This document shows positions 3,646 through 27,447 of a stretch of DNA of 27,544 bases, piece after piece; the stretch's first letter is position 1; every line of letters begins with the position of its first letter. Origin of the DNA: a virus. Made by a program: the position numbers and the translations under genes. Under the pieces are notes generated by a model. The model did no database searches and was not told the DNA's origin. It saw nothing but the letters and a program-made list of their open reading frames with translations. The DNA lies in the IMG/VR virus record IMGVR_UViG_3300031703_000043, positions 1 to 27,544 of that record; one strand, 5' to 3'.

Positions 3646-4227
3646 TTAATTATTTGATTTTCCATTTATTCCTGTTACAGGACAGCTAACAATTGTTGTA
3701 GAAATAATACGCATATGTGTACTTGCTTCTACTATATTAAAAATAGCCAATGCAAGCATTGTTTTATCTATTAAATGTTTATCTTTATTATCGTTATATT
3801 TGCTACTATTAAATCTGCCAGGTTTAATATTAATTACTTGACAGTGTTTTTCCATAGTAGATAAGTTTAATGCAATTTCGTCTAATGCGTGTTTACCAGC
3901 ATCATATCTTTTTTGTTGTGTGCTTTCGTTTTTTCTATTTCTAGTTTGTGGAGAAGATCCACTAATAACTACAATCTTTTTATGCTGATCTTTATATTCG
4001 TCCCATAGCTCACAAAGCATATCAATTTGTGCAAATCTGTTTTCATTACTACTTGCTACAATGTATATGACAGCAATATCTTTAGCATTTTTTACAATTT
4101 TCTCTCTGCTGCTGAAATTAGAAATATCATATCCATTATCTAAACTAAAGCCTAGTGGATTCTTATGTAGTTTGAAAATTTCATTCCCAAGTCCACTACT
4201 ATGGCCAATAATTAAACAATCATACAT
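3646..4227 (-). CDS. Short-chain dehydrogenase/reductase-like protein
   Basis: 193 residues, short for the SDR family (usually about 250). The N-terminal GHSSGLG (8-14) fits the glycine-rich nucleotide-binding motif, VVISGSS (86-92) fits the catalytic-serine strand, YDAGK (108-112) gives the YxxxK catalytic pair, and INIKPGRF (132-139) matches the PG motif after the active site. It is therefore likely an NAD(P)-dependent oxidoreductase or a sugar-modifying member, substrate unknown. The C-terminal substrate-binding part is shortened. The start overlaps the end of the upstream oxygenase gene by 8 nt (4220-4227), so the two are probably translated together. No strong ribosome binding site is visible. 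The gene ends just before the kinase promoter. Confidence 0.72.
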   Translation of the reverse strand: MYDCLIIGHSSGLGNEIFKLHKNPLGFSLDNGYDISNFSSREKIVKNAKDIAVIYIVASSNENRFAQIDMLCELWDEYKDQHKKIVVISGSSPQTRNRKNESTQQKRYDAGKHALDEIALNLSTMEKHCQVINIKPGRFNSSKYNDNKDKHLIDKTMLALAIFNIVEASTHMRIISTTIVSCPVTGINGKSNN

Positions 4228-4843
4228 TTATAAACTTGCCTTCTTTGTAGCGTTTGATCATATCTTCGTATGTTTCATGAGTAATTTTAATTCTAAACAT
4301 TACTCGTTCATATTTTATCTGTTCAACACTATGTAATGTTTTTCCATTAAAAATACTTGGATGATTCATATCATATGTATACTCATATTCAATTCCTAGA
4401 GGGTTATCTCTGTCACTATCCTCACCTTTCCAAAAAGTAATTTTTTCAAAATCATTCTCTGGCAAAATAGGAAGCATTATATTATAGTGCATCTGCCTAT
4501 CAGTATGAGGTTTAAAAACAAATTCTGGTTCGTAATACATAAATGTTATATCGTCGTTACCAAGAGGTTCTAAAAAATTAAATTTACTTATTAGTTCTTT
4601 AACTTCTGGATATTCCTGCATATGTTTTCCTTCGTATGCAGGGCTATACACTCCCATTAATCTTCCAGAATAGCCATCTGTTCGACCTTGGTGTCTGTGT
4701 ACTTGATTTTTTCTATTTTTAATAGCAGTCTTGTATTCGTTCCACTCTAACGCACAATGACTCATACGCTCATATAAATTTTTAAGAGCGGGTCGATTGT
4801 ATACAAGTTCGTCTACTACAACATGATGTTTTGATTCTTGCAT
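4220..4843 (-). CDS. Fe(II)/2-oxoglutarate oxygenase-like protein
   Basis: 207 residues. The core motifs of a non-heme iron dioxygenase are visible: HxD at H113-T-D115 (FKPHTDRQMHYNIMLPI), distal histidine H171 (NGKTLHSVEQ) and a following arginine, R180 or R184, for 2-oxoglutarate. The N-terminal 90 residues hold a helical, charged region that I do not recognise. The gene follows the gp13-like neck gene by 11 nt and overlaps the SDR-like gene at its 3' end, so it belongs to the same late-type unit read from 5622. No clear Shine-Dalgarno sequence precedes its ATG. Target unknown; proteins are more common than metabolites for phage members of this fold (inference). Confidence 0.75.
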   Translation of the reverse strand: MQESKHHVVVDELVYNRPALKNLYERMSHCALEWNEYKTAIKNRKNQVHRHQGRTDGYSGRLMGVYSPAYEGKHMQEYPEVKELISKFNFLEPLGNDDITFMYYEPEFVFKPHTDRQMHYNIMLPILPENDFEKITFWKGEDSDRDNPLGIEYEYTYDMNHPSIFNGKTLHSVEQIKYERVMFRIKITHETYEDMIKRYKEGKFINV

Positions 4844-5628: not shown

Positions 5629-6924
5629 TTACTTATTAAATGTCGCTATAAGAATCGTCTCACCATTAATACGTCCATTCAGTTTTGTTTCTGTTGTTTT
5701 TAAGGAGTCAACTAACTTCTCTAACTTAGATCTAGTAGACTTCTTCATTTGTGGAAGCACTTCTGCAGGCTTACGTATTGTACGTTGTATACTCTTGTTC
5801 TCATCGTACCCAATAATAGTAGTTCCTTTAACACTAAGTCCACTACCTTCACGTTGTAGTCCCATTGGATCTACATTGCTAGCATAGTAAATACCTAGCT
5901 TACGGTTGCGAGTGTTAAATACCACCAGCATTCGGGCGTAAACGATATCAGCTGGCAATATGCTTGCTAAACCATAATCGGGGTCGCTTTGCTTAAATTT
6001 GAGCTTCTTAACTAGGTCTTCTGGACTCTTAGTACGTACTTTACGTACTTTGCGATTCAATTTACCTTCTGCTTCACAAATATCACATGCACCTTCAATC
6101 TTTCTGTATATTGCAAGTGCCGCTTTTTGTTGAGCAGTTGACATGTGACTGTAACCTTCTTCAAGTTGTAAACGGTTGTCATCTTTGTCATCTTTAGATA
6201 CTTTAGCATTAAGCTCTGCAAATTCTGCAACTGCATCAGCATAGTACTTACGAATAATTCTAGCATGTGCTGTTTTAACGCCTGCTTTTTTAAGCATAGC
6301 AGTTGGTTCAAAGTCTTTTGCCAATGATGTATCATATCCACTGTTAAGCCATACGTCTAAGAAGTCTTCTACTTCACCTGTCATATCAATTGCGGCTCTG
6401 TGTAACAACTCTTGAATAGTAGGCTTGCGAGTATTTAATTCTAACCTAGCATCTAGTATTGCTTTCTCTTCTGCTTCTTTAACAAATGATGTTCCTTCGT
6501 CAATTGCATTAGCAATGCGTTTCTTAATGAAGTCACTAATTGGTTTAGGAGTTCCTGATGTACCAGCTAGCCCTTCCCAATATGCATTCCAAGCGAGATG
6601 CTCGTCTGGACAACCCATAGTAAGCATGCGACAGTAGTAACCTGTTACTGCACTTATTGATTGACTCTTCGCTGCCTTAACACATTTAATGTCTTGCTTA
6701 GTATATTCGTTAGCAAGCATCCAAGTGAATGCAAAGTCATGCAGATCACTTACTTTGTAATTTTGATAATAATAATCCGTTGCGGCTTGACGTTTCTGAT
6801 GAAACTCTTTACCTGACCAACCATCTGCACCATCCCAATTAGGATCCTGTAAAAGGTTTTTACGAATCTTTAAAGAAGTTGCTCTTGGCTTCTTCTTTTT
6901 TGTTAATTTTATTCCTACTGCCAT
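5629..6924 (-). CDS. Lysine-rich protein of unknown function
   Basis: 431 residues, not recognised with confidence. The N-terminus is strongly basic (KLTKKKKPRATSLKIRKN, 6-23). The middle is helical and charged, with a single CxxC pair (C280-D-I-C283) followed by a very basic stretch (KLNRKVRKVRTK), and the C-terminus (KSTRSKLEKL) is basic too. These features would suit a nucleic-acid-associated protein, but no catalytic motif is apparent. It follows the 54-aa ORF by 1 nt, with a GGAG site inside that ORF's last codons, which suggests coupled translation. It ends shortly before the neck gene's late promoter. I recall hypothetical proteins of this length near head and neck genes in marine myoviruses. 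Confidence 0.7.
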   Translation of the reverse strand: MAVGIKLTKKKKPRATSLKIRKNLLQDPNWDGADGWSGKEFHQKRQAATDYYYQNYKVSDLHDFAFTWMLANEYTKQDIKCVKAAKSQSISAVTGYYCRMLTMGCPDEHLAWNAYWEGLAGTSGTPKPISDFIKKRIANAIDEGTSFVKEAEEKAILDARLELNTRKPTIQELLHRAAIDMTGEVEDFLDVWLNSGYDTSLAKDFEPTAMLKKAGVKTAHARIIRKYYADAVAEFAELNAKVSKDDKDDNRLQLEEGYSHMSTAQQKAALAIYRKIEGACDICEAEGKLNRKVRKVRTKSPEDLVKKLKFKQSDPDYGLASILPADIVYARMLVVFNTRNRKLGIYYASNVDPMGLQREGSGLSVKGTTIIGYDENKSIQRTIRKPAEVLPQMKKSTRSKLEKLVDSLKTTETKLNGRINGETILIATFNK

Positions 6925-6925
6925 T

Positions 6926-7090
6926 TTATTCTCCGTGATAACTTTGAAACATTAGACGATCAATTTCGTCTGCTTTATTTTGGTACTTATCAATTAGTGA
7001 AGAAATCTGCTTGTTATCAACAAATCCTTTAGGATCTGCTGTTGATTGTAAATTTTGTAGTGCTTCGATAAACTCTAAATGTTCTAACAA
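6926..7090 (-). CDS. Small 54-aa protein with TTG start, unknown function
   Basis: Reading from TTG at 7090 gives a 54-residue helical, charged protein (start MLEHLEFIEALQNLQS, end FQSYHGE) stopping at 6926-6928. AAGGAG sits 8 nt before the TTG, which decides this start because no ATG lies in frame nearby. The stop is followed after 1 nt by the ATG of the 431-aa gene, whose ribosome binding site lies inside this ORF, an arrangement expected of translational coupling. A TTGACA with a weak TACACT 17 bp on lies upstream at the 3' end of the 120-aa gene and might be a promoter. No membrane segment or known motif. Confidence 0.62.
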   Translation of the reverse strand: MLEHLEFIEALQNLQSTADPKGFVDNKQISSLIDKYQNKADEIDRLMFQSYHGE

Positions 7091-7127
7091 AAGTATTACT
7101 CCTTGATTGCAATTTGTTTATAGTGTA

Positions 7128-7490
7128 CTACGCTTCTACAGCGATGTCAACCTTTTCAAATCCAAAGTCTGCAACAACGTGCATAATTCCATTAGAATCT
7201 TGCACAACATCAGCAACACTAACACTATGCATTTCGTTTAAACGTTCAATATTTTCTTCCGGGCCCATGTTACCTATGTGAAATACACCTTCAAGTGTAT
7301 CAGCAGTAATATTAGCAACATGTGAATAATAACCATCTAATATGGCTTTACCTGCTTTAGAAGCAATGCTTTTTGAAAACTGCATATCTAGCTTTGCTTT
7401 ATGATGAGGAACTGCATCGTGTCCTTCTGCGTTAATTAGGTCAACATCTGCATCTGAGAGTTTAATTTGAAAAAGTTTAAAGTTTGCCAT
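7128..7490 (-). CDS. Small conserved-type phage protein, unknown function (120 aa)
   Basis: 120 residues (start MANFKLFQIKLSDADVDLIN). It is acidic and soluble with mixed alpha/beta character, and no catalytic motif is visible. The MxxFKLFxIKLSDAxVxxIN opening resembles a hypothetical protein I recall from marine T4-like phages, but no function is attached to it. It is preceded by GGAG and a perfect sigma70 promoter (7519-7547) that is nearly the same as the one for the next gene upstream. It is therefore probably an early gene, perhaps a host-interaction factor (inference). Confidence 0.7.
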   Translation of the reverse strand: MANFKLFQIKLSDADVDLINAEGHDAVPHHKAKLDMQFSKSIASKAGKAILDGYYSHVANITADTLEGVFHIGNMGPEENIERLNEMHSVSVADVVQDSNGIMHVVADFGFEKVDIAVEA

Positions 7491-7509
7491 TTTGTAGTTC
7501 TCCTTTGTT

Positions 7510-7547
7510 TATAATACTATTATAAGGTAAGACGTCTTGCTTGTCAA
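7510..7547 (-). promoter_or_regulatory. Perfect sigma70 promoter with two dyads, 120-aa gene
   Basis: On the minus strand TTGACA (7542-7547) and TATAAT (7519-7524) are 17 bp apart. The spacer contains the 10-bp palindrome AAGACGTCTT (7529-7538), and a 15-bp dyad (7510-7524, arms TATAATA and TATTATA around one base) covers the -10 and start region. The promoter is nearly identical to the one at 7929-7966. Confidence 0.85.
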
Positions 7548-7550
7548 CCA

Positions 7551-7904
7551 TTAAATGAATAAATTACTTTTCATTCCTCTTTTTTCTCTCCAAGCATTAA
7601 CAATACGGTCACTCCAGCCTGGGTTGTTATTATCTAACACGATAGTTGGTGCAACTTCATGTCCGTTACGTGCTTCAACATACTCTTCAACAGTAAAGTT
7701 GTTAACAAGTTCTTTCATAAACTTTGCTTTAGTAATTGGCGTTCCGGCATATTTAAAACGTGCAATAAACAAGTCAATTCCACGACCAACATTACTTGGA
7801 TGTACATTTTTACCTGCTTCGTAAACTGGCTGACCTTCATATGCACCTCTGTACATTAAGTATCCACCGTGGTAACTAAAATCTGCTTTATTAAACTGTG
7901 TCAT
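7551..7904 (-). CDS. Small conserved-type phage protein, unknown function (117 aa)
   Basis: 117 residues from ATG at 7904 (MTQFNKADFSYHGGYLMYRG). This start is chosen because GGAG lies 8 nt upstream and the sigma70 promoter lies just behind it; a longer frame reaching 8000 would run through the promoter and the halogenase terminator. The YHGGYL motif, FIARFKY (about 54-60) and KAKFMKELVNNFTVEEYVEAR (about 68-88) follow the pattern of a small hypothetical protein that I recall as common in marine T4-like phages. No function is known. It is soluble with no membrane segment. The near-twin promoter implies co-regulation with the 120-aa gene downstream. Confidence 0.72.
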   Translation of the reverse strand: MTQFNKADFSYHGGYLMYRGAYEGQPVYEAGKNVHPSNVGRGIDLFIARFKYAGTPITKAKFMKELVNNFTVEEYVEARNGHEVAPTIVLDNNNPGWSDRIVNAWREKRGMKSNLFI

Positions 7905-7928
7905 ATTCAACTCCGTTTTTTTATTGTC

Positions 7929-7966
7929 TATACTTATAGTATACAGTAAGAAGTCTTGGTTGTCAA
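7929..7966 (-). promoter_or_regulatory. Sigma70 promoter with -10 dyad, 117-aa gene
   Basis: On the minus strand TTGACA (7961-7966) and TATACT (7938-7943) are 17 bp apart. A 15-bp dyad (7929-7943, arms TATACT and AGTATA around 3 nt) begins at the -10. The spacer shares CAAGACnTCTTAC with the promoter at 7510-7547. Confidence 0.82.
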
Positions 7967-7977
7967 CCAGAACCGCC

Positions 7978-8006
7978 ATAAAAAAACCCTTGTATTTCAA
8001 AGGGTT
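7978..8006 (-). terminator. Rho-independent terminator of the transporter/halogenase operon
   Basis: On the minus strand a 7-bp stem (AACCCTT / AAGGGTT, 8000-8006 and 7985-7991) with an 8-nt loop is followed by a run of T. It lies about 20 nt after the halogenase stop, separating the late operon from the sigma70 promoter that follows. Confidence 0.82.
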
Positions 8007-8024
8007 GTAAATTAATTTAATTTT

Positions 8025-9230
8025 TTATTCTGGATAGTGTTTAAAATCGTCAAAATATAGGCCTAATGATGCCCATATTGCGTCTGGGTACAAACTTGTA
8101 TACTTGTTTGAATTCTTTTTATAGCTTTCCCATAAAGTTTTACTTGCATCCAACTTACTGTAGTATTTCCAAAACTCTGTATCTGTGCGATTACTTAACA
8201 TATAATGGTGTAATATGTAATCTGAGTTATCTTTTTGTACTTTCATTATTGCCTTGTTGTATGCTTTTGGTGGTGAACCTTTTAATATACATCTTACTAG
8301 TAGTGTGATACTGTATTGTACTAAAAATAATCCATTTGCTTCTAATGGATCAACAAACCCTTGACCAAGTCCAATTGATACTACATTATCTACCCAAGGG
8401 TTCTTCAGTACACCTGGAGTCCATTTAAGTAAACGTGGCTCTATTCCTTTAAATGGTGTTCTGTGAGCAGTCCATTTTTTAAACTTTTCTAACGCTTCTT
8501 CTTCGCTTACAAAATCAGTACTAAAAACATAACCAGTTCCTGTTCTATGTTGCAAGTCTACCATAAACTGCCAACCATCTGGTCTAGCGAATGTTTTTGT
8601 ATATGGTATACTTTCGCCTTCTAGTTCTAACGGCCTAACCCAAGAACGATTAACTTTATGATGTTCACTAAATGTTTCTTCTGTTTTATCTTTGACAAAC
8701 TGTCTACGAAATCCTGTAGCGTCTACATATAAATCATATCCTGGTGGAAGTTCTTCTAATGTATCAATAACATGGTTAACACGTTTACAATGATCACGTA
8801 CAACGTGTCCTGCAAGGTTAGCATCTAAATGATATGCTACTGCTCTCCATCCTTCTTTATCGTACAAGTCTGGATTTATATCATCTCTAACTTTTTTACC
8901 TTGCTTAAATTCTTTATACCAATCATTAAATAATGTTTTAGGTTCGTTTTGCCAAAAAGTCATTAAGTATGGATCTGCACCTAATGCATCCCATTCGTAT
9001 TTTATATTTCCATATTTGTGAACTGCATTACATCCGTCCATCCATTCTTTTTCTGGAATACCTAGTTCTTCAAAAAATGCACCTATTTGTGGAAGTGTTC
9101 CTTCTCCTACTCCTACAGTAGGAATTTCATCACTTTCTATAAGTGTTATTTCTGCATCAGGTAAAAACTTTTCCATGTAACCTGCACACCACCAGCCTGC
9201 TGTTCCACCGCCAATAATACATATTTTCAT
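8025..9230 (-). CDS. Flavin-dependent halogenase (tryptophan halogenase family)
   Basis: 401 residues. The N-terminal FAD-binding motif GGGTAGWW (7-14), then VGVGEGTLPQI (39-49) and GIPEKEWM (57-64) are hallmarks of the family. K72 (NAVHKYGNIKYEW) falls where the catalytic lysine of PrnA-type halogenases lies, and E297 (FVDPLEANGLFL) matches the conserved active-site glutamate. GWQFMVDLQHRTGTGYVFS (219-237) occupies the place of the WxWxIP-containing segment, with W220 kept but the rest changed. The enzyme would use FADH2, O2 and halide to halogenate a substrate; no flavin reductase is visible in the window, so the host would have to supply FADH2. The protein is shorter than bacterial members (about 510-540). 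Related halogenases occur in cyanophages, including VirX1. It overlaps the upstream membrane gene by 4 nt (ATGA). Confidence 0.88.
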   Translation of the reverse strand: MKICIIGGGTAGWWCAGYMEKFLPDAEITLIESDEIPTVGVGEGTLPQIGAFFEELGIPEKEWMDGCNAVHKYGNIKYEWDALGADPYLMTFWQNEPKTLFNDWYKEFKQGKKVRDDINPDLYDKEGWRAVAYHLDANLAGHVVRDHCKRVNHVIDTLEELPPGYDLYVDATGFRRQFVKDKTEETFSEHHKVNRSWVRPLELEGESIPYTKTFARPDGWQFMVDLQHRTGTGYVFSTDFVSEEEALEKFKKWTAHRTPFKGIEPRLLKWTPGVLKNPWVDNVVSIGLGQGFVDPLEANGLFLVQYSITLLVRCILKGSPPKAYNKAIMKVQKDNSDYILHHYMLSNRTDTEFWKYYSKLDASKTLWESYKKNSNKYTSLYPDAIWASLGLYFDDFKHYPE

Positions 9231-9574
9231 CCGATATAATACCTTATGATTATAAACGAGCTAATACCAATCCATAAACTATTGAATGCTACTAATGTAG
9301 GTAGTAGCTTTTGTTCGCTCACCCATATTAACAACGCTGAAGTCATTAATGTTATGAAATGTGCCCATATAACTTCTTTTCCAAAAATTATAGCAGGAAG
9401 TATCACAAGTAGTTTAGCAGTCCATGCTGCTGCTTCAACTACATTGTATCTTTTTAGCCAATAACCTTTACTAAACCATAAACAATAAGATTTATGTATT
9501 TCCTTGAAACCAACTTTGTTATAGACAACAAAAACAATTGTTGCCCATAATGTTAGTGTTAATATAGTTACCAT
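9227..9574 (-). CDS. Small integral membrane protein, probably four transmembrane helices
   Basis: 115 residues with hydrophobic segments at about 3-20, 44-65, 68-88 and 90-113, leaving a short charged loop (KEIHKSYCLWFSKGYWLKRYN) between the first two. I do not recognise the family. It starts 4 nt after the transporter stop and its stop overlaps the halogenase start by 4 nt, so it is the middle gene of a tight three-gene operon. Its position suggests an accessory to the transporter or a membrane anchor for halogenase work (inference). No catalytic residues are evident. The ATAAATA in the last codons of the transporter gene lies too close to its ATG to serve as its promoter. Confidence 0.8.
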   Translation of the reverse strand: MVTILTLTLWATIVFVVYNKVGFKEIHKSYCLWFSKGYWLKRYNVVEAAAWTAKLLVILPAIIFGKEVIWAHFITLMTSALLIWVSEQKLLPTLVAFNSLWIGISSFIIIRYYIG

Positions 9575-9578
9575 ACTA

Positions 9579-10553
9579 TTATTTATCCGCTTTTATTAGT
9601 CTTTCAAACTCTCTAAGTCTTTTATAAACACTTGCTAATTCAATAATTGTTGGCCATGCTTTTAACAAATATTGCATCGAACCTTCAACTCTTCCAAATG
9701 CTCTTATAATTTGTTGCATAACACCTAATGTTACAACACCTGCTACAATAGCTGGAGCTAAGAAAACATAAGCTGATAACACATTGGCTTGTAAATATGA
9801 AAGTCTACCTATATTAAAATATAAATATCTTATATAAGATTTAAAGTGAATTCCTCTAACATCTTGGAATATTTCTTCAATTGTTTTAGGACGAATAGTA
9901 TTATCATCTTCTGCAATGACAAGTATCTTTCTGTAAGCTGCTTCTTTCTTTTGTAAGTCATATTCGACTCCAACTAGACGCAACACCCATCCTAATGCTA
10001 TTAAGAATATAGTTCCACCAACAGTCCATATTAATGCACCTGTTATTAATCCATATTGCCAATCACCAAAGAAGAATATTGGAATACCAGCTGATAATCC
10101 TAAAAGAATAGGAATAAACTGTATTAACACCATAACTGATTCAATAAAACTTGTACCAAGTGATTCCATGATACGACTAAACTTAATTGTATCTTCTTGT
10201 ACACGTTGAGCCGCACCTTCTATTGTACGAGCTTTATCGTATACGCTGTGATACCATTCTACCATTGCTGCTCGCCAACGGAACAGATAGTGTGCTGTAA
10301 AGTAACTGATAAGAACATATATTAAAACATAAATTGCGGCCAAGTAAAAGAAACTTGCTAAACTTGCCCAGTATTCACCAATAGTTATTGCATTTGGCTC
10401 GCCTAATGCTTTTTGTATCATATCATAAAATTGTCCAAACCATTCGTTAATTTTAACGTCAATTTGAACTTGTATCCATAAAGAACTCAGGATAACAGCT
10501 GAACCCAGCCATGACCATAACTTCCAATGGGTTTCTGTAAAAAATCTAAACAT
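9579..10553 (-). CDS. SbmA/BacA-type peptide transporter, N-terminally short
   Basis: 324 residues. Segments match E. coli SbmA as I remember it: LFRWRAAMVEWYHS (90-103), IEGAAQRVQEDT (111-122), EAAYRK plus EDD (204-217), LYFNIGRLSYLQ (244-255), a VAGVVTLGVMQQI helix (270-282) and VYKRLREFE (309-317). SbmA/BacA proteins sit in the inner membrane and use the proton gradient to import peptides such as microcins and proline-rich antimicrobials; the related Rv1819c moves vitamin B12. This protein begins where SbmA residue about 85 would lie, so the first helices of the 406-aa family are missing. The start is supported by AGAGGA 6 nt upstream and by a perfect late promoter (10597-10604) directly behind it. 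It heads the operon with the membrane protein and the halogenase. Confidence 0.9.
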   Translation of the reverse strand: MFRFFTETHWKLWSWLGSAVILSSLWIQVQIDVKINEWFGQFYDMIQKALGEPNAITIGEYWASLASFFYLAAIYVLIYVLISYFTAHYLFRWRAAMVEWYHSVYDKARTIEGAAQRVQEDTIKFSRIMESLGTSFIESVMVLIQFIPILLGLSAGIPIFFFGDWQYGLITGALIWTVGGTIFLIALGWVLRLVGVEYDLQKKEAAYRKILVIAEDDNTIRPKTIEEIFQDVRGIHFKSYIRYLYFNIGRLSYLQANVLSAYVFLAPAIVAGVVTLGVMQQIIRAFGRVEGSMQYLLKAWPTIIELASVYKRLREFERLIKADK

Positions 10554-10572
10554 AAGTTTTCCTCTTATAAAA

Positions 10573-10588
10573 TGTAGTTTTAACTACA
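10573..10588 (-). other. Leader hairpin of the transporter operon
   Basis: A 7-bp inverted repeat (TGTAGTT / AACTACA) with a 2-nt centre lies between the late promoter and the ribosome binding site of the SbmA/BacA-like gene. Similar dyads sit in other late leaders here. Confidence 0.6.
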
Positions 10589-10595
10589 CACATAA

Positions 10596-10604
10596 CTATT
10601 TATA
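10596..10604 (-). promoter_or_regulatory. Perfect T4-type late promoter (TATAAATAG)
   Basis: The minus strand reads TATAAATAG, the full T4 late consensus, about 44 nt upstream of the transporter start. It implies that the transporter, membrane protein and halogenase are made late in infection. It is divergent from the gp14 late promoter only 22 bp away. Confidence 0.8.
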
Positions 10605-10626
10605 TGTTTCTACGATACGAAATTGC

Positions 10627-10634
10627 ATAAATAC
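10627..10634 (+). promoter_or_regulatory. T4-type late promoter for gp14/gp15 (ATAAATAC)
   Basis: ATAAATAC lies about 20 nt upstream of the gp14-like start, with AAGGA between them. It drives the only plus-strand unit of the window. Confidence 0.72.
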
Positions 10635-10654
10635 AATATAACAAGGAAACCTAC

Positions 10655-11722
10655 ATGCCAAGATTAAGTTTATACAAACCATTTAAAGGTAACGACTATA
10701 AGTTTATGGATCATGCAATCCGTGAGCAATTCGACATAGGTGGTACCGGAATACACGTACACAAGTACTTAGGCCCAAACGTTAGAAGAGATAGTAACGA
10801 CCCTAGTGAGCCTAACTACGGTAGTGGTTTAGAAGTTGACAATATAACTGGACAAGAAATAAATCCCGAAGGCAACATAGACGAAACAAAGATACAAGAT
10901 CTATTGTTTATGGAAAACCGAGACAGGAAGTATGATCCAGATATTTTTGAATTACGTGGAGTATATAATGTAAGTGACAACGACTTTGACTTAACCCAAT
11001 TTGGCCTATTCTTAACAAACGATACACTTTTTATTAGTTTTCACATTAACGACATGGTTGAACGTATGGGTCGTAGACTTATGCCAGGAGATGTAATTGA
11101 ATTACCTCATTTAAGAGATGAATTATTGCTTACTGCGGAACGTGAAGCTATTAACAAATTTTATGTAGTACAAGATGCGGCAAGAGGCAGTGAAGGATAT
11201 AGTCAAACATGGTATCCACACATTTGGCGTGTTAAAGTAGCACCACTTACAGATACACAAGAATACGCAGATATACTTGGTACTGCTAACGATCCAGACA
11301 GTTTAAAACAAGATTTAAGTAATTATAAAACAGAACTTAACATTAGTAATGCAATTGTAGCGGCTGCTGAAAACGCAGATCCATTAGGGCTTCCATTAGC
11401 AGAACATTTATTTGGACAAGAAGATAAAACTGATGAATATGTACATGGCGACACACTAGTACAAGGTGATCAGTTTCCAGCTTTTCCAAATGATGGAGAA
11501 TACTTTGTTAGAACTGATTTCCAACCAAATAGACTGTTTGTAAGACGTGGAAGTAAATGGCATAGATTATATGACAATATTACTGGCCAAACTTGGAGTG
11601 ATAGAACATACAATGCAAGTAGCTTTATTAACAATAATAAAACAACAGTAGTAGATGATAAAGAACAGCCAGAACGTCAGGCAATATCACAAGCTATTAA
11701 ACCTAAGAGTGATTTTAAATAA
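10655..11722 (+). CDS. Neck protein, gp14-like
   Basis: 355 residues. The start MPRLSLYKPFKGNDYKF, the HKYLGP segment (about 37-42), ENRDRKYDPDIFELRG and FDLTQFGLFLTNDTLFISFH (about 112-131), RRLMPGDVIELPHL and SQTWYPHIWRVK (about 183-194) follow the conserved pattern of gp14 neck proteins in marine T4-like phages as I remember them. The protein helps join head and tail. It is longer than T4 gp14 (256 aa); the extra C-terminal part includes a Trp motif (LFVRRGSKWHRLYD) resembling those in gp15 and gp18 of this window. The stop overlaps the gp15 start by 1 nt (TAATG), so translation is coupled. The ribosome binding site is AAGGA. Confidence 0.82.
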   Translation: MPRLSLYKPFKGNDYKFMDHAIREQFDIGGTGIHVHKYLGPNVRRDSNDPSEPNYGSGLEVDNITGQEINPEGNIDETKIQDLLFMENRDRKYDPDIFELRGVYNVSDNDFDLTQFGLFLTNDTLFISFHINDMVERMGRRLMPGDVIELPHLRDELLLTAEREAINKFYVVQDAARGSEGYSQTWYPHIWRVKVAPLTDTQEYADILGTANDPDSLKQDLSNYKTELNISNAIVAAAENADPLGLPLAEHLFGQEDKTDEYVHGDTLVQGDQFPAFPNDGEYFVRTDFQPNRLFVRRGSKWHRLYDNITGQTWSDRTYNASSFINNNKTTVVDDKEQPERQAISQAIKPKSDFK

Positions 11723-13080
11723 TGGCACAACAATATTTTTATGATAAACAAATTCGTAGATACATTCAGCAATTTATAAGATTGTTTAGTGGCTTTAACG
11801 TTGAAATGGGAAAGAACGATCAGGACTTAGCTGTATTCCAACAAGTTCCTGTACGTTATGGTGACATTAACAGAATGGCTGCCCACATAACAAGAGAGAA
11901 CAGTGAAAACATTATTAATACTGTTCCATTTTTAAGTTGTTATGTAACTAGTTTAGACATGATGGCAGATCGTAGAACATATCAAGATCATGTTGATAAG
12001 GTTCAAGTGTTTGAAAAGAAATATGACGACACTACAGGAGCATATACTAACGAAAAAGGTAACAGCTACACAGTTGAAAGACACGCACCCGTTCCTTACA
12101 TGCTACAAATGAATACTGACATTTGGACATCTAACACAGATCAAAAATTACAGTTAATGGAACAAATACTTGTATTGTTTAATCCTACATTAGATATTAG
12201 AACTAATAGCAGTGTAATAGATTGGACAGCACTAAGTCATGTAGAGTTAACTGGAACAACATGGAGTACTAGAAGTGTTGGTTCTAGTATAGATGATATT
12301 ATTGATGTTGCAACGTTAAGTTTTAACATACCAGTATACATTAATCCACCAGCTAAAGTAAAACAACAGAAATTAATTCACACTATTATCAGTGAACTTT
12401 ATAACCTAGACGAAGACAACTTAGACTTGTTTAAGAACGAACAAGCATTCGACAAAAAGACGTTACAATACACAGTTGTAACATATGAAGATAGAAAAGT
12501 AAAGTATGAAGATGGCAATCTGCAATTACTAAATCAAAACGGATCTACATTAGACGACGATGGTATAACTTTAGATTGGTCTAAAGAATTACTAGCATTT
12601 GGAGTTTTAAGACCCGGTATAAGTCAATTGCGACTTAGAAAAAGTACACAAGTATCTGATGTAACAGAAGATATTATTGGCAGATTAGACATACATCCAT
12701 CAAATGTAAATCTATTAACAGTCGACATAGATGCAACAACATTACCTACTAATACATTAGGTACAGTTGATGCTATATTAGATCCAGCGATTAACTTCCC
12801 TGGCGATGGTACTATGCCATCAGCAGCTACAGGCCAAAGGTATATCTTATTATCTGATTTACCGTCAAGCACTAATTGGGGCAATGTAGTAGCTGGTAAG
12901 TATGATATCATAGAGTATAATGGGTCAGCATGGATTGTAAGTTTTGATAGCTCTAACATTTCGGCAGTAAATTACGTAACTAACGTAGCAAGTAATGACC
13001 AATTAGAATGGAATGGCTCTGAATGGGTCAACAGCTATGAAGGAATTTATAATGCAGGCTACTGGCGACTATATCTGTAA
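11722..13080 (+). CDS. Tail completion and sheath stabilizer protein, gp15-like
   Basis: 452 residues. The start (YFYDKQIRRYIQQFIRLFSGF), then VPVRYGDINRMAAHI, YTVERHAPVPYMLQMNTDIWTSNT and QKLQLMEQILVLFNP are the conserved core of gp15, which caps the tail tube and stabilises the sheath before it joins the head. T4 gp15 has 272 residues; here about 180 C-terminal residues are added, containing two Trp-rich repeats (IIEYNGSAWIV and QLEWNGSEWVN) that may bind sugars or form surface loops (inference). It overlaps gp14 by 1 nt. A possible 25-aa reading frame starts inside its last codons in another frame. Confidence 0.83.
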   Translation: MAQQYFYDKQIRRYIQQFIRLFSGFNVEMGKNDQDLAVFQQVPVRYGDINRMAAHITRENSENIINTVPFLSCYVTSLDMMADRRTYQDHVDKVQVFEKKYDDTTGAYTNEKGNSYTVERHAPVPYMLQMNTDIWTSNTDQKLQLMEQILVLFNPTLDIRTNSSVIDWTALSHVELTGTTWSTRSVGSSIDDIIDVATLSFNIPVYINPPAKVKQQKLIHTIISELYNLDEDNLDLFKNEQAFDKKTLQYTVVTYEDRKVKYEDGNLQLLNQNGSTLDDDGITLDWSKELLAFGVLRPGISQLRLRKSTQVSDVTEDIIGRLDIHPSNVNLLTVDIDATTLPTNTLGTVDAILDPAINFPGDGTMPSAATGQRYILLSDLPSSTNWGNVVAGKYDIIEYNGSAWIVSFDSSNISAVNYVTNVASNDQLEWNGSEWVNSYEGIYNAGYWRLYL

Positions 13081-13129
13081 CACAGATGATCCATGCGACG
13101 ATTGCACACATTGGATAGGCACACTATAA
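13052..13129 (+). CDS. Possible 25-aa Cys-rich micro-ORF
   Basis: ATG at 13052 opens a 25-residue frame (MQATGDYICNTDDPCDDC, then THWIGTL) that overlaps the end of gp15 and stops 1 nt before the NUDIX start codon. AAGGA lies 7 nt upstream of the ATG. Three cysteines and an acidic CNTDDPCDDC core could bind a metal. The fit between two coupled genes and the biased composition argue for a real gene; its length and overlap argue for caution. Confidence 0.42.
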   Translation: MQATGDYICNTDDPCDDCTHWIGTL

Positions 13130-13130
13130 C

Positions 13131-13568
13131 ATGATAACAGCAAGCGGTTGCTTATTTTTAAGCACAGACACAGGCAGAGTTATGCTACAGCAAAGAAGTG
13201 GCGCTGTCAACCATCCTAGAACATGGGGCTTTTTTGGCGGCAAAGCTGAGGGTAAAGAAAGACCTGTTGAATGTTTAATGCGTGAGGTTGAAGAAGAATT
13301 AGGATTAGTTCCTGATGTTAAAAAAGTTATTCCAATTAACAAGTTTACAAGTCCTAATAAGAAATTTATATACCATACATTTGTAGTTACAGTAGAAGAA
13401 GAATTTCTTCCTATATTAAATAATGAAAGTGATGGTTATTGTTGGGTTAAAGTAGGTAATTGGCCTAGGCCGTTGCACCCTGGTGCTAAGATACAATGTA
13501 GTTCAAAACAGTTCATTAAAAAAATAAAAACTGTATACGAACAGCATACTACGCCGTTGGAAAAATAA
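13131..13568 (+). CDS. NUDIX hydrolase
   Basis: 145 residues with a complete NUDIX box, GKAEGKE(x7)REVEEELGL at 37-59 (pattern G-x5-E-x7-R-E-x2-E-E-x-G-x), where E52, E55 and E56 would bind the metal. The preceding PRTWGFFGG stretch is the usual lead-in. NUDIX enzymes hydrolyse nucleoside diphosphates linked to another group (sugars, oxidised dNTPs, NADH, RNA caps); the substrate cannot be read from the sequence. Phage members are common and may clean the nucleotide pool. It is the last gene of the plus-strand late unit, and its last 20 nt overlap the 3' end of the opposite-strand sulfotransferase-like gene. Confidence 0.88.
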   Translation: MITASGCLFLSTDTGRVMLQQRSGAVNHPRTWGFFGGKAEGKERPVECLMREVEEELGLVPDVKKVIPINKFTSPNKKFIYHTFVVTVEEEFLPILNNESDGYCWVKVGNWPRPLHPGAKIQCSSKQFIKKIKTVYEQHTTPLEK

Positions 13569-14265
13569 TACCCATTTCTTTTCTAGTAAACATTCTATCT
13601 AAAAATGCATTAAATACTTCTTCAGTATCATATTGATGAAGTTCGCTAAATTCAGGATCAACTTCAATAATTTCTTCTATAGTTCTTATATTATATGTAA
13701 AGCCTAATGCAATTGCAGTTTCTTTCCAACCCGAATATCTTTTTAACTTAAAATGTTTTTTTATTTCAGCACATTCAATTTTAACTTGCTGTAGCATTTT
13801 TTCATCATTCTCGTACCAAGTGTACATCGGGTAATCAATATTCCACCCACCTACATGTTTCCACCATTTAACACATTCTTCTGGTGTATCGTGGAATGCC
13901 CATATTGTAGCTTTTGGAAATAATTCTTTTAATAATGGTATATGATAACTAAACCAATGACTTTTAATAATTTTAATCCCATGGTCCCAATTAGCAAATG
14001 GTGCTTTAAACTCTTTTACTATTTCTTCTTTTGTTAAATGTTGAAGTAAATCAAACTTATGACCTACTGGATTATCCGGACCCCAATATGCGCCTCTGTG
14101 CCAGCCAACAACTTCTCCATTAACTTTTTTTCTATAAACAAAGTCATTTTTATTATCACTTAAATTAATATCTCTACATAAAAGACTAAGCATACGAATT
14201 GCTCCACTCCATCTAGAACCTGGAGCTCCTGCAACTATTATTAAGTCTTCACCTTGGTATTCCAT
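13549..14265 (-). CDS. Sulfotransferase-like protein
   Basis: 238 residues. GAPGSRWSG (13-21), in LIIVAGAPGSRWSG, fits the 5'-phosphosulfate (PAPS) binding loop that opens sulfotransferases, and IKIIKSHWFSYHIPLLKELFPKATIWAFHDTPEECVKWW (97-135) follows the second conserved part (K-x-H, strand with aromatic, then helix). These enzymes move a sulfate from PAPS to a sugar or protein. Conserved-residue support is partial, so this is a fold-level call. The start overlaps the SGNH gene stop by 1 nt (TAATG), and the 3' end overlaps the NUDIX gene tail to tail. It is the last gene of the surface-chemistry operon. Confidence 0.65.
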   Translation of the reverse strand: MEYQGEDLIIVAGAPGSRWSGAIRMLSLLCRDINLSDNKNDFVYRKKVNGEVVGWHRGAYWGPDNPVGHKFDLLQHLTKEEIVKEFKAPFANWDHGIKIIKSHWFSYHIPLLKELFPKATIWAFHDTPEECVKWWKHVGGWNIDYPMYTWYENDEKMLQQVKIECAEIKKHFKLKRYSGWKETAIALGFTYNIRTIEEIIEVDPEFSELHQYDTEEVFNAFLDRMFTRKEMGIIFPTA

Positions 14266-15074
14266 TATATGCCTTTGTTAAGTTCTGTTAATATTTTATC
14301 TGCTAGATAATTATGAGTTTTAGGTCCTGGGTGTGTTTGGTCTCTTCCTAAGTCTATCATTTCTTCTTTACTGTATTGTATTGATTTAATATGTGTTGGT
14401 TGATAATCATAGAACCAATGCTTTCTTCTTTCATTTGGTTCTAATATATAATACTGTGCATTTGGAAATGCTTGTAGTAATGCTAATTCAAACATTTTAA
14501 ATATTTTACCATTGCTTTGTTTAAAAGTTTCTCTAACAAGTTCTCTAACTTTTGCATCTTTTTCTTTTCTTAACCAAAATCTCATAAGCCAGTTAGTGTC
14601 ATTAACACCCCAGAAATCAGTAAGTATAACGTACTTTGGATTAAGTTTAAAATTAAATAAATTATCTGCCATATCTGTTAATGTATCAAAATCACTTATA
14701 TTAAAATGGTTCAATGCTAGCTTTTTAGAAAGCAAATATGGTATACTCATCTCATACGGTATTCCAGTTCCTAATAATAAACTACCGCCCGCAAATACTA
14801 TACCAACATCAGTTAAATCATCCGGACCTCTATATCCATATTTGTTCCATGTATAACTAAAGTCCAATTCGGCATTATTATCCCAATCAAGTTCTTGTAT
14901 TGCATTAAAAGTAAAATGGTCAGTTCCATTTTCTCCTATTTTACATTTGTTTCCTGTATCATGTCTGCCATAATATTTTATTGTTTCGTTTGGCAGTCTT
15001 GGTTGTTTTGCAGATTTTTCACCTGCGGTATATTTAAACTTTGGATCTACGACTGGATTTCCAAATTCTATCAT
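14265..15074 (-). CDS. SGNH/GDSL-type hydrolase
   Basis: 269 residues. The nucleophile block FAGGSLLLGTG (94-104, S98), the GVND block (156-159, with N159) and the C-terminal DQTHPGPKTH (245-254, D245 and H248) are the three signatures of the SGNH fold. Such enzymes remove acetyl groups or esters from sugars and lipids; in a phage they may trim host surface glycans or decorate virion sugars (inference). No signal peptide, so it acts in the cytoplasm or on virions. It overlaps the upstream oxygenase by 4 nt and the downstream sulfotransferase-like gene by 1 nt. Confidence 0.78.
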   Translation of the reverse strand: MIEFGNPVVDPKFKYTAGEKSAKQPRLPNETIKYYGRHDTGNKCKIGENGTDHFTFNAIQELDWDNNAELDFSYTWNKYGYRGPDDLTDVGIVFAGGSLLLGTGIPYEMSIPYLLSKKLALNHFNISDFDTLTDMADNLFNFKLNPKYVILTDFWGVNDTNWLMRFWLRKEKDAKVRELVRETFKQSNGKIFKMFELALLQAFPNAQYYILEPNERRKHWFYDYQPTHIKSIQYSKEEMIDLGRDQTHPGPKTHNYLADKILTELNKGI

Positions 15075-16024
15075 ACTTCAATAATCCTATTAGGATCTGG
15101 ATTGTCAATCATGTGTTGTACTTTATCACTAACGAATCCAGTAAACTGAAAAGTAACTCTAGGTGTATATCCAAAGTTAGCTGTTCCGTGTGGCATATTA
15201 CACCAATCATAAGTTATACACGTACCTGCTTTGTATCCTTGATGGTAGGTATTACCAAATTGCCATACATGACCATAGTCCCAATCTTGTAAGTGAACTA
15301 GGAATCTTCTTAATTTTAAAGGATTTTTATCTGCACCTGCTTCTGTCCAAACTTTACGCCAACCTGGTCTTGCATATCTCATTTGTTGATCAATATGTAT
15401 AGGAGTAACTTGTCCTAATTTTTGTATATGCATTCTCGATTGGTGTACTTCTACTTCTAACGAGTCAATCATACGTAAAAGTATTTCATACTCTGGTGCA
15501 GGATTGCGTCCAGCATAGTAATTCTTTCCGTCTTTATCAAATTTTGCTTTAACAACCATGTCATGATACATACCGCTTATATCTTCTTTACCAGATGCAT
15601 TTAAAACGTCTTGTATTTCACCATCATGTAAATCTTTGTCTTGTTTACTTAAATTTCTATTTCTATAATTTCCTATAGTCATTTCTTTTGAATGTTCTAC
15701 TGCGTACTTAATTGCTGGTGCAAAATCTCCTTCAAATCTACAGGGTATTACAAATGTTTCTTCATGTGGATCAGCAAAAGGATCAAAGTGCCAATCTGCA
15801 TGTAATTTATTATGCTCCCATCGACTTGGAACTCCATCTACTTTAAAGATGTTGTCCATAGTTTTATGTGTACTCATTTGCTCGTTACTATACAGTTCAT
15901 CTTTGTATGATGTGTCAGCTTGTGTATTACCTTCTTGATGTTCATAGTCAGAGTTTTTAACTGCATCAACTAAATCGTCAATCTTTTCTCCACTATAATA
16001 GTTTTTATCTGTTTTTTCTTTCAT
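15071..16024 (-). CDS. Fe(II)/2-oxoglutarate oxygenase-like protein, long N-terminus
   Basis: 317 residues. The C-terminal half has HxD at H210-I-D212 (VTPIHIDQQMRYARPG), then FLVHLQDWDYGHVWQF, the distal histidine H279 (NMPHGTANFG) and R289 (TPRVTFQFTG), which together make a complete 2-oxoglutarate oxygenase active site. The first about 190 residues, rich in charged and acidic segments, are not recognised. Similar phage proteins are known in marine T4-like genomes. The start abuts the upstream oxygenase gene with no gap, so the two oxygenases are co-translated. Substrate unknown. Confidence 0.77.
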   Translation of the reverse strand: MKEKTDKNYYSGEKIDDLVDAVKNSDYEHQEGNTQADTSYKDELYSNEQMSTHKTMDNIFKVDGVPSRWEHNKLHADWHFDPFADPHEETFVIPCRFEGDFAPAIKYAVEHSKEMTIGNYRNRNLSKQDKDLHDGEIQDVLNASGKEDISGMYHDMVVKAKFDKDGKNYYAGRNPAPEYEILLRMIDSLEVEVHQSRMHIQKLGQVTPIHIDQQMRYARPGWRKVWTEAGADKNPLKLRRFLVHLQDWDYGHVWQFGNTYHQGYKAGTCITYDWCNMPHGTANFGYTPRVTFQFTGFVSDKVQHMIDNPDPNRIIEV

Positions 16025-16603
16025 TTAATGTTCCTTACAGTTTGGTAACATACTAATAATTGTCTTTAAATTACTTTCAGTTAAGAATACACTCATCAAT
16101 ATATGATATATGCCATCAGCCATTGCAAAACTTCCATGTTGTTTTCTTGTATTTAATATATACGGTACACCTGGCTTGAACTCTACACGCTTATCTTCGT
16201 ATATAAAGTTCCATTCGTTTACGGCTGTTTTGTTTAATGGAATAAAAATTCTAATTTGTGGGTTCATTCTAAATGCATCTCTATGCATACTAAAGAAACT
16301 ACCTGCAGACATTTTTGCAGCCCTGCATCTAGCTAAATTTTCCCACTCTACAAAGAATTCCATAAGACTTGGACATTGACCAAGATTTTGGTTATAGCCC
16401 TGGTTCTCGTTGTGCTTGTCTTTAGAATCTAAAGATAAGTCGCCTAATGGTCCTGTAAGATTTAAACCAAACTTTCCATTAGGTCCGGCTTCCCATTCTA
16501 ACTGTTCTAATTCGTTGATAACTTTTTCAGAATCAAATTTGTAATCTAATTCAAATATATCTCCGTAACTATTCAGTAGTGGTAGTAGATTTATATCGCT
16601 CAT
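16025..16603 (-). CDS. Oxygenase-like protein, Asp/Asn-hydroxylase type, incomplete site
   Basis: 192 residues. HxD at H107-R-D109 (SFFSMHRDAFRMNPQIRIFIPL) and the distal histidine H156 (NTRKQHGSFAMADG) fit the aspartyl-hydroxylase-like fold. The arginine expected about 10 residues after the distal histidine to hold 2-oxoglutarate is missing: the stretch reads GIYHILMSVFL, with H167 there. It may bind a different cosubstrate, use the arginine from another strand, or act as a non-catalytic partner of the neighbouring oxygenase (inference). The start overlaps the DUF6356-like gene by 35 nt; the stop touches the next start. Confidence 0.68.
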   Translation of the reverse strand: MSDINLLPLLNSYGDIFELDYKFDSEKVINELEQLEWEAGPNGKFGLNLTGPLGDLSLDSKDKHNENQGYNQNLGQCPSLMEFFVEWENLARCRAAKMSAGSFFSMHRDAFRMNPQIRIFIPLNKTAVNEWNFIYEDKRVEFKPGVPYILNTRKQHGSFAMADGIYHILMSVFLTESNLKTIISMLPNCKEH

Positions 16604-16853
16604 TTTTTGGTTTCTTCCTTAATTCGTCCATATCTTTGATATGTTGGATACGCATAATTTGATGATACATTTTAATTACACCCTTGGGTGCATCTGCTTT
16701 CCACATAAATGGGAACAGTCCATGTACTACGCTTTTAAAAGCAATTATGATAAGAGACCAACTATTTTTTATACTGTGCCATAAGTGATAAAAGTATCCC
16801 CATCCAGTTTCAACGTTAAGATGATGCTTGGATTCTTTAAACCACCTTATCAT
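16569..16853 (-). CDS. DUF6356-like small membrane-associated protein
   Basis: 94 residues. The pattern ESKHHLNVETGWGYFYHLWHSI followed by a hydrophobic segment (about 33-50) and a VHGLFPFMW motif resembles the DUF6356 family, small proteins with one or two membrane helices and unknown role, often found in marine phages and proteobacteria. The C-terminus is charged (KKPKNERYK). It starts 2 nt after the upstream glycosyltransferase stop, with AAGGAA as ribosome binding site, and its end overlaps the oxygenase start by 35 nt. Confidence 0.6.
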   Translation of the reverse strand: MIRWFKESKHHLNVETGWGYFYHLWHSIKNSWSLIIIAFKSVVHGLFPFMWKADAPKGVIKMYHQIMRIQHIKDMDELRKKPKNERYKSTTTTE

Positions 16854-27418: not shown

Positions 27419-27431
27419 AGAGATTTCTCCA

Positions 27432-27447
27432 ATCAAATATATTTGAT
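27432..27447. repeat. 16-bp perfect palindrome in leader of the 1588-aa gene
   Basis: ATCAAATATATTTGAT reads the same on both strands. It lies just upstream of the GGAG ribosome binding site. Confidence 0.7.

Follow-up and report, generated by a model that had tools for sequence, protein, structure and literature searches.

An SbmA-type transporter gene and an exchangeable halogenase cassette beside the neck gene of a contractile-tailed phage

Does a phage operon that joins an SbmA-type transporter gene to a halogenase gene encode one pathway, or two units that happen to be packed together? The question is raised by a DNA stretch of 27,544 nucleotides from a large marine phage (IMG/VR record IMGVR_UViG_3300031703_000043, positions 1 to 27,544; hereafter the window), of which positions 6501-13200 are identical to part of the 90,378-base viral contig IMGVR_UViG_3300027714_000009. 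Three genes lie on its minus strand: an SbmA/BacA-family transporter without the TM0 region (9579-10553, 324 aa, PF05992), a small membrane protein, here called TM (9227-9574, 115 aa, no family match), and a short flavin-dependent halogenase, here called Hal (8025-9230, 401 aa, PF04820, with K72 and E297). SbmA and TM are separated by 4 nt, and TM and Hal overlap by 4 nt (ATGA); an earlier reading of the letters by themselves, the sequence-only reading, had the coordinates, strands, gap and overlap right. We give a probability of about 50% to the reading that this late operon comprises two functional units, a near-core SbmA importer and an exchangeable TM-halogenase cassette. This reading is carried by the identities of the genes, their conservation, the exchange of the cassette, and the co-occurrence of the halogenase with a tailoring island located elsewhere in the window.

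SbmA is a near-core gene in the sampled relatives. Viral SbmA loci were taken from the best 80 of 208 and the best 80 of 207 matches and merged by hand to 93 viral contigs. In 65 of these, as in the window, SbmA adjoins a head/neck gene, called gp13-like (10655-11722, plus strand; phrog_11591, 1.4e-93). A halogenase lies within 2 kb in 27 of the 65 (11 with TM), 27 are without one, and 11 are cut (one with TM); the other 28 contigs comprise 10 with a halogenase 5.4-6.3 kb downstream, one (L298; L and G numbers are our contig handles) with a halogenase within 2 kb, 10 without one, and 7 that are cut. Loci were also anchored on the neck gene (best 80 of 421 matches), which gave 47 with a fully visible slot and left out 33 cut loci (21 with SbmA, three of these also with Hal, and 12 in which SbmA is not visible). 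SbmA is present in 41 of the 47, with Hal in 21 (8 of them with TM) and without Hal in 20, and the remaining six hold neither gene. The search of marine viral genomes that the sequence-only reading had proposed found the same gene order again, with the genes linked in relatives. SbmA, TM and Hal keep their order across relatives and evolve under purifying selection, with low dN/dS for SbmA (0.04-0.12) and for Hal within its own type (0.03-0.05), a moderate value for TM (0.15-0.26), and 0.17-0.28 between halogenase types, where silent sites are nearly saturated.

The halogenase behind SbmA is exchangeable. Slot halogenases do not form one clade (p-AU 1.35e-6), and at least three lineages stand behind SbmA. 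Depending on the relative, the cargo after SbmA is none, Hal, RpiB-like plus Hal, RpiB-like plus TM plus Hal, TM plus Hal, or AspH-like plus Hal, TM and a further Hal, a set to which L298 adds a DAO-family gene. TM and Hal are swapped as one cassette: in L005, which has a backbone like that of the Hal-only type L007, DNA identity to the studied phage is 83-92% in SbmA tiles, rises to 96-99% from the middle of TM until shortly before Hal ends, and is 63-83% and patchy beyond. The TM-Hal order after SbmA also occurs in the divergent sister lineage L298/L404. We considered and rejected the idea that L298/L404 represent a wholly independent location, as both share the gp13...SbmA setting of the other relatives, enlarged by three genes; L404 also has g431 and the neck genes behind.

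The presence of Hal tracks a tailoring island rather than SbmA. The island (16853-13549, minus strand) comprises a small DUF6356 protein, g94 (16569-16853; PF19883, 1.3e-8), a 2-oxoglutarate (2OG)-oxygenase-like protein, g192 (16025-16603), with conserved HRD and H positions, a 2OG/cupin-like protein, g317 (15071-16024), with an HxD...H pattern and no Pfam or PDB match, an SGNH-hydrolase-like protein, g269 (14265-15074), labelled by motif, with no Pfam match and a weak PDB match to an esterase (E 0.32), and a sulfotransferase-like protein (13549-14265). For g192 there was no Pfam match and no meaningful PDB match, so that its 2OG label is by motif only; the sulfotransferase-like protein has only a P-loop-like motif and no Pfam match, and its PDB search returned only a chain named gp55 (E 0.023). 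Co-occurrence was scored by reducing 174 loci, many on the same contigs, to 51 with room on both sides and then to 29 distinct gp13 alleles, 25 of them with SbmA. The island is present in 8/9 Hal-bearing and 0/20 Hal-less alleles (Fisher p 2e-6). In other phages, Hal stands directly after g94-g192 (six halogenase clusters) without SbmA, and in L443 the order g94-g192-Hal-g317-g269 places Hal at a junction that the studied phage leaves unoccupied.

Partner genes of viral halogenases were counted within 3.5 kb across the best 80 of 82 halogenase loci, grouped into 29 clusters at 80% identity, and a cluster was scored as positive if any member has the partner. Thirteen clusters have AMP-ligase and/or GNAT-like genes (three of them through one member, and with a GNAT label that rests on weak matches), six have g94 and g192 only, namely DUF6356 and 2OG-like genes, five have SbmA, and five have none of the partners sought. 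The partner profiles were built from genes beside these same halogenases, and the counts therefore describe recurrence, not independent detection. Against a background of 27 Hal-less loci, AMP-ligase, GNAT and DUF6356 were found in none, AspH in four, g192 in two and nitroreductase in two. Pfam searches on single chosen members identified AMP-binding, nitroreductase, carbamoyltransferase, radical SAM, DAO, fatty-acid desaturase, ketoacyl synthase, MotA/ExbB and DUF6356 families. Small membrane proteins, either TM or DUF6356-like, recur beside viral halogenases. On larger contigs with non-slot halogenases (36-236 kb), SbmA was found on 1 of 16, and that homologue is only 34% identical.

How strongly do these counts separate the transporter from the enzyme? 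A single transport-coupled system, in which a peptide or small molecule is transported by SbmA, possibly aided by TM, and modified in the cell by Hal, would fit the tight 4-nt spacings, the several halogenase lineages behind SbmA, the presence of SbmA in all 13 TM-bearing loci among the 80 halogenase loci, the visible slot without a halogenase in all six SbmA-less loci, and the Asp/Asn-hydroxylase-like gene that lies between SbmA and the halogenases in L298/L404, where TM-Hal again follows SbmA. This reading stays alive because halogenases have entered or been replaced at the same place on more than one occasion and because TM-Hal recurs behind SbmA, and the joint function proposed by the sequence-only reading finds partial support. 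The part in disabling competitors or in lysis that it suggested would be speculative. We nevertheless consider one import-and-halogenate unit rather unlikely, and that part of the proposal was not upheld: SbmA is found without Hal in 20 of the 41 loci, Hal tracks the island, SbmA is missing within 3.5 kb of 24 of the 29 halogenase clusters, the larger non-slot contigs are nearly devoid of it, and TM occurs in L122-type viruses with neither Hal nor SbmA in the locus, as well as on contigs of 48-117 kb without SbmA. If the site 3' of SbmA were simply a plastic cargo site, SbmA, TM, Hal, RpiB-like and other genes would be functionally unrelated hotspot insertions, and the variety of cargo, from no Hal to AspH-like plus Hal plus TM plus Hal, fits this view. 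The co-occurrence of Hal with the island and the position of TM directly 5' of Hal in 13/13 TM-bearing halogenase loci both speak against such a site, and we regard it as distinctly improbable.

The target of the halogenase may also lie outside any transport pathway. Hal and the 2OG-like enzymes could act late in infection on virion proteins such as tail fibres and other adhesins, with SbmA unrelated, a reading that we judge unlikely. The location in a late region, next to neck and tail genes, suits it, and the fold of Hal is also that of the lanthipeptide tryptophan halogenase MibH (VIA Z 33.5). Of nine cyanophage halogenase regions, two (P-RSM6 and S-CREM1) have tail-fibre-assembly or collagen-like genes close by, and three (P-RSM6, S-CREM1 and Syn1) have annotated 2OG oxygenases; the remaining six show neither by annotation, many of their genes being hypothetical, and the AMP-ligase and/or GNAT-like genes beside 13 of the 29 halogenase clusters suggest small molecules instead. 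Those neighbours and the small membrane proteins favour a small or membrane-linked substrate, whereas the tail-fibre-assembly or collagen-like genes in 2/9 cyanophage regions favour a virion protein; we hold the former to have little better than even odds. A wider proposal, to which we assign a low probability, is that large marine phages carry natural-product-like tailoring pathways around a distinct short halogenase with alternative partner modules. The modules would be AMP-ligase with GNAT-like, DUF6356 with 2OG-like, and SbmA, to which TM may be added as a small carrier; the SbmA form would transport its substrate through the inner membrane and, within the infected cell, hydroxylate, halogenate and perhaps sulfate it.

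Several points weigh against the division into an importer and a separate cassette. At least three Hal lineages and the TM-Hal pair of L298/L404 behind SbmA exceed the linkage expected of mere neighbours, unless the site is a hotspot. A halogenase is present somewhere on 8 of 10 hand-picked SbmA-bearing viral contigs of 67-222 kb; in a second set of large contigs, picked mostly for having no halogenase nearby, 2 of 22 SbmA contigs carry one. The island split of 8/9 against 0/20 is uncorrected for kinship and may reflect few events, and most of the island proteins match no family, the 2OG and sulfotransferase labels coming from motifs. L298 has Hal without the island, together with an Asp/Asn-hydroxylase-like gene of its own, whose counterpart in L404 matches PF05118. 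Late expression, transport and halogenase activity, a joint pathway and the substrates are what we infer, and the host is suggested solely by the similarity of SbmA.

Under the preferred two-unit reading, the SbmA unit would be a proton-coupled importer close to the SAR11/SAR116 copies and kept beside the neck gene, and it would most likely sustain the import of peptides or other bulky, hydrophilic solutes when infection is at a late stage. Hal would most likely be FADH2-dependent and halogenate an aromatic group on a molecule that is also processed by the island enzymes, that is, the DUF6356 protein, the two 2OG-like oxygenases, the SGNH-like protein and the sulfotransferase-like protein. To our knowledge, the natural substrates of viral halogenases have not been identified. 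The sorting of partners into a few modules, including a transporter operon, indicates which genes to co-express when seeking a halogenase substrate. A near-core SbmA-type importer in phages prompts the question of what a marine cell still has to import as it dies.

The transporter is a member of the SbmA/BacA-type family, as the sequence-only reading had it. PF05992 matches residues 8-320, its whole length (2.4e-136), and residues 5-324 align to residues 78-397 of E. coli SbmA (7p34; 3.9e-89). As the alignment begins at residue 78 of the E. coli protein and residue 5 of the phage protein, TM0 is missing. The protein matches NF009036 (PRK12369, putative transporter) over its full length with 427.7 bits, above the cut-off of 385, and scores 365.9 bits on the SbmA equivalog NF008306, under the cut-off of 492; it is therefore filed under PF05992/NF009036 and not as SbmA proper. 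PMC13316013 gives the proton pathway of E. coli SbmA as E193, E203, E269, E276, E287 and E378. These glutamates and Y368 were mapped by hand through the pairwise alignment; the Y368 equivalent is retained, and the ladder glutamates E120, E130, E197, E204, E215 and E305 are invariant across 17 viral copies, including the phage copy. The phage protein has PF05992, six glutamates and the Y368 equivalent in common with E. coli SbmA/BacA of the SLiPT family, and differs from it in the absence of TM0 and in being encoded in a phage late region.

Cellular relatives of the transporter are close. Identity is 81-87% among the best 80 of at least 522 bacterial matches, a list from which closer copies may be missing and in which the titled organisms are mostly SAR11/SAR116, many are just Alphaproteobacteria, and one is a gammaproteobacterium. 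Matches occur in 122 of 147 SAR11-family genomes, and identity reaches at least 78% in 11 of these. Despite this closeness to the SAR11/SAR116 NF009036 copies, nearly all viral copies separate in the tree: among its 59 rows, a single group unites 38 of the 40 host copies, with one viral copy branching at the base; the remaining viral copies fall outside that group, and two bacterial-labelled contigs lie among these. By sequence reading, frequent neighbours of the host gene resemble NDUFA4 and GlpX in SAR11, and rodA, mreBCD, pbp2, glmU and glmS in SAR116.

Isolated phages were considered as a source of SbmA and rejected: only 4 of 50,697 records matched, namely an Acinetobacter record, its sister record and two short unannotated ones, and the one Acinetobacter record examined has bacterial-type neighbours. 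This contig, 'Acinetobacter phage MD-2021a' (L211), has bacterial-type genes around sbmA and is probably not a phage. Our literature search found no paper on phage SbmA, on an importer of this type as a near-core gene of a phage family, or on the combination of SbmA and halogenase, which agrees with the remark in the sequence-only reading that it knew of no described system of this kind. In the main text of a study of SbmA/BacA distribution (PMC12003926), the words phage, virus, Pelagibacter and SAR11 are absent. Directly 5' of SbmA, a MotA/TolQ/ExbB-like gene (identified by Pfam in L404) and two membrane genes are found in L404 (3465-5099), L298 (5972-7591), L053 and L077. In L056 (304-6125), the genes 5' of SbmA look by sequence reading like TGT/DpdA, GTP cyclohydrolase I and QueE, a set as in 7-deazaguanine DNA modification.

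Hal belongs to the flavin-dependent halogenases by family (PF04820, 1.7e-70; phrog_2928, 7.2e-82) and by fold. Its AlphaFold2 (AF2) model (pLDDT 88.9) has the flavin-halogenase fold over nearly its full length, with VIA Z scores of 43.3 for SttH (392 residues), 41.7 for BrvH, 41.6 for Xcc4156, 35.0 for VirX1 and the value given above for MibH. K72 and E297 align to the Lys and Glu of known enzymes, which we take to be catalytic, and are invariant in 25 viral sequences, including the phage copy, which bears out the catalytic pair named by the sequence-only reading. The GxGxxG flavin motif is present near the N terminus (IIGGGTAGWW). The tunnel motif Fx.Px.Sx.G reads FVDPLEANG, in which F, P and G are retained and S is replaced by A, and GWQFMVD stands in place of WxWxIP. 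Loss of WxWxIP was not counted as an exclusion because this motif or its variants are missing from a number of flavin halogenases, according to PMC8407142. Genes of 1104-1167 nt are listed for cyanophage halogenases in PMC3037559, and short viral halogenases are therefore not new; cyanophage halogenases as such are well known (20/153, in PMC10452541).

Compared with known enzymes, Hal is short. BrvH, Xcc4156, PrnA and RebH share its fold over nearly the whole chain and its catalytic Lys/Glu positions, and the tryptophan-halogenase chains compared have 497-554 aa versus 401 aa. VirX1 (PDB 6qgm, from the marine cyanophage Syn10) has the same fold in 531 aa. CPUG_00132 of Syn10 is 32% identical to Hal, has 507 aa, and reads GWVWNVP where Hal has GWQFMVD; no SbmA is annotated in the 7-kb stretch around it. 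Gp079 of Pelagibacter phage HTVC008M is 28% identical, has GWVWKIP at the WxWxIP position, and lies directly after a 2OG oxygenase gene among late genes, with no SbmA annotated in the surrounding 13-kb stretch. In pelagiphages, 2OG-Fe(II) genes are frequently near each other and often accompanied by ferrochelatase (PMC9599517); the word halogenase does not occur in that article.

No convincing halogenase was found in 147 SAR11-family and 58 SAR116-type genomes. An empty host search is no proof of absence, and two fragments of about 67-69 residues (E 6e-4 and 9e-4) were not counted. The flavin reductase family PF01613 was found in 0 of 11 contigs searched. PF00881 was found in 5 of the 11, over the cut-off in three, none of which bears SbmA, and below it in the SbmA-bearing G005 and in G240. 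A nitroreductase-family gene lies just 5' of the halogenase in L444 (directly), L446 and L462, and is possibly its flavin reductase. A carbamoyltransferase stands beside the halogenase in L444 (Pfam) and in L442 and L448 (sequence reading), and a radical-SAM gene in L442 (Pfam) and L430 (sequence reading). In L056, L034, L465 and L474, clusters of AMP-ligase, long halogenase and GNAT-like genes resemble a small biosynthetic cluster, with a ketoacyl synthase in L056, L465 and L474 and a desaturase-like gene in L056 and L034 (Pfam on L056 only).

TM is without a known family, as had been stated: there was no match in Pfam, PHROGs or PDB sequences, and the value of E 0.19 obtained with another member is meaningless. 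Four helices are predicted at residues 2-21, 44-64, 68-89 and 92-114, the AF2 model has low confidence (pLDDT 70), and five diverse copies share invariant N, E, K, H and R residues along the chain. Relatives occur in four viral contexts: after SbmA and before Hal, as in the phage studied; between two halogenases in L298 and L404; amid 2OG-like genes in L116-type phages, with a halogenase 1.6-1.7 kb away; and in the L122-type viruses. SbmA is absent from five TM contigs of 48-117 kb, two of which have a halogenase nearby. An identity as a SemiSWEET or mitochondrial pyruvate carrier was set aside as doubtful, as the fold matches are weak (VIA Z 4.5-5.8, under the stated noise level for helical proteins) and have no sequence support. 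PF03083 gave only 2 matches in 58 SAR116-type genomes, both below the cut-off. An ammonium-transporter-like gene lies near TM in L122 (3545-4783, by sequence reading).

Late-type expression of the operon is plausible from the signal that precedes it. A late-promoter-like element, TATAAATA, whose consensus we take to be that of a late promoter, lies 5' of SbmA (10597-10604, minus strand). Taken alone it was rejected as promoter evidence, since the exact element occurs at chance level in the AT-rich window (2 observed, 4.5 expected); 5' of SbmA it is found in only 4 of 80 relatives, L001-L004, whose SbmA copies are 100% identical. It is credible because a TAAATA core recurs 37-53 nt upstream of SbmA in 58 of the 65 neck-adjacent relatives, as opposed to 5% of 70-nt background tiles. 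The terminator that the sequence-only reading called strong was overstated: the hairpin with a T-run (7985-8006, minus strand) is weak, with a 7-pair stem and 3 G-C pairs, and such sites are at chance level (3 observed, 3.3 expected).

Head/neck-, tail-sheath- and head-tail-adaptor-family neighbours identify a contractile-tailed phage; for the sheath-stabiliser-like gene, the best-listed isolate relatives are about 37-39% identical and come from large Pseudomonas and Sinorhizobium phages. Among relatives, an RpiB-like sugar isomerase lies between SbmA and the halogenase in L065 (4481-5023) and L088 (4234-4728), and two sulfotransferase-like genes fill the slot in the SbmA-less L381 (4632-6973), all by sequence reading. 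Elsewhere in the window there are an Asp/Asn-hydroxylase-family gene (744-1499; PF05118, 3.6e-10) and a 2OG-like gene labelled by motif only (4220-4843). Two long, repetitive fibre-like proteins of 750 and 1594 aa are encoded at 20228-22480 and 22652-27436, and the long open reading frames antisense to both are probably compositional.

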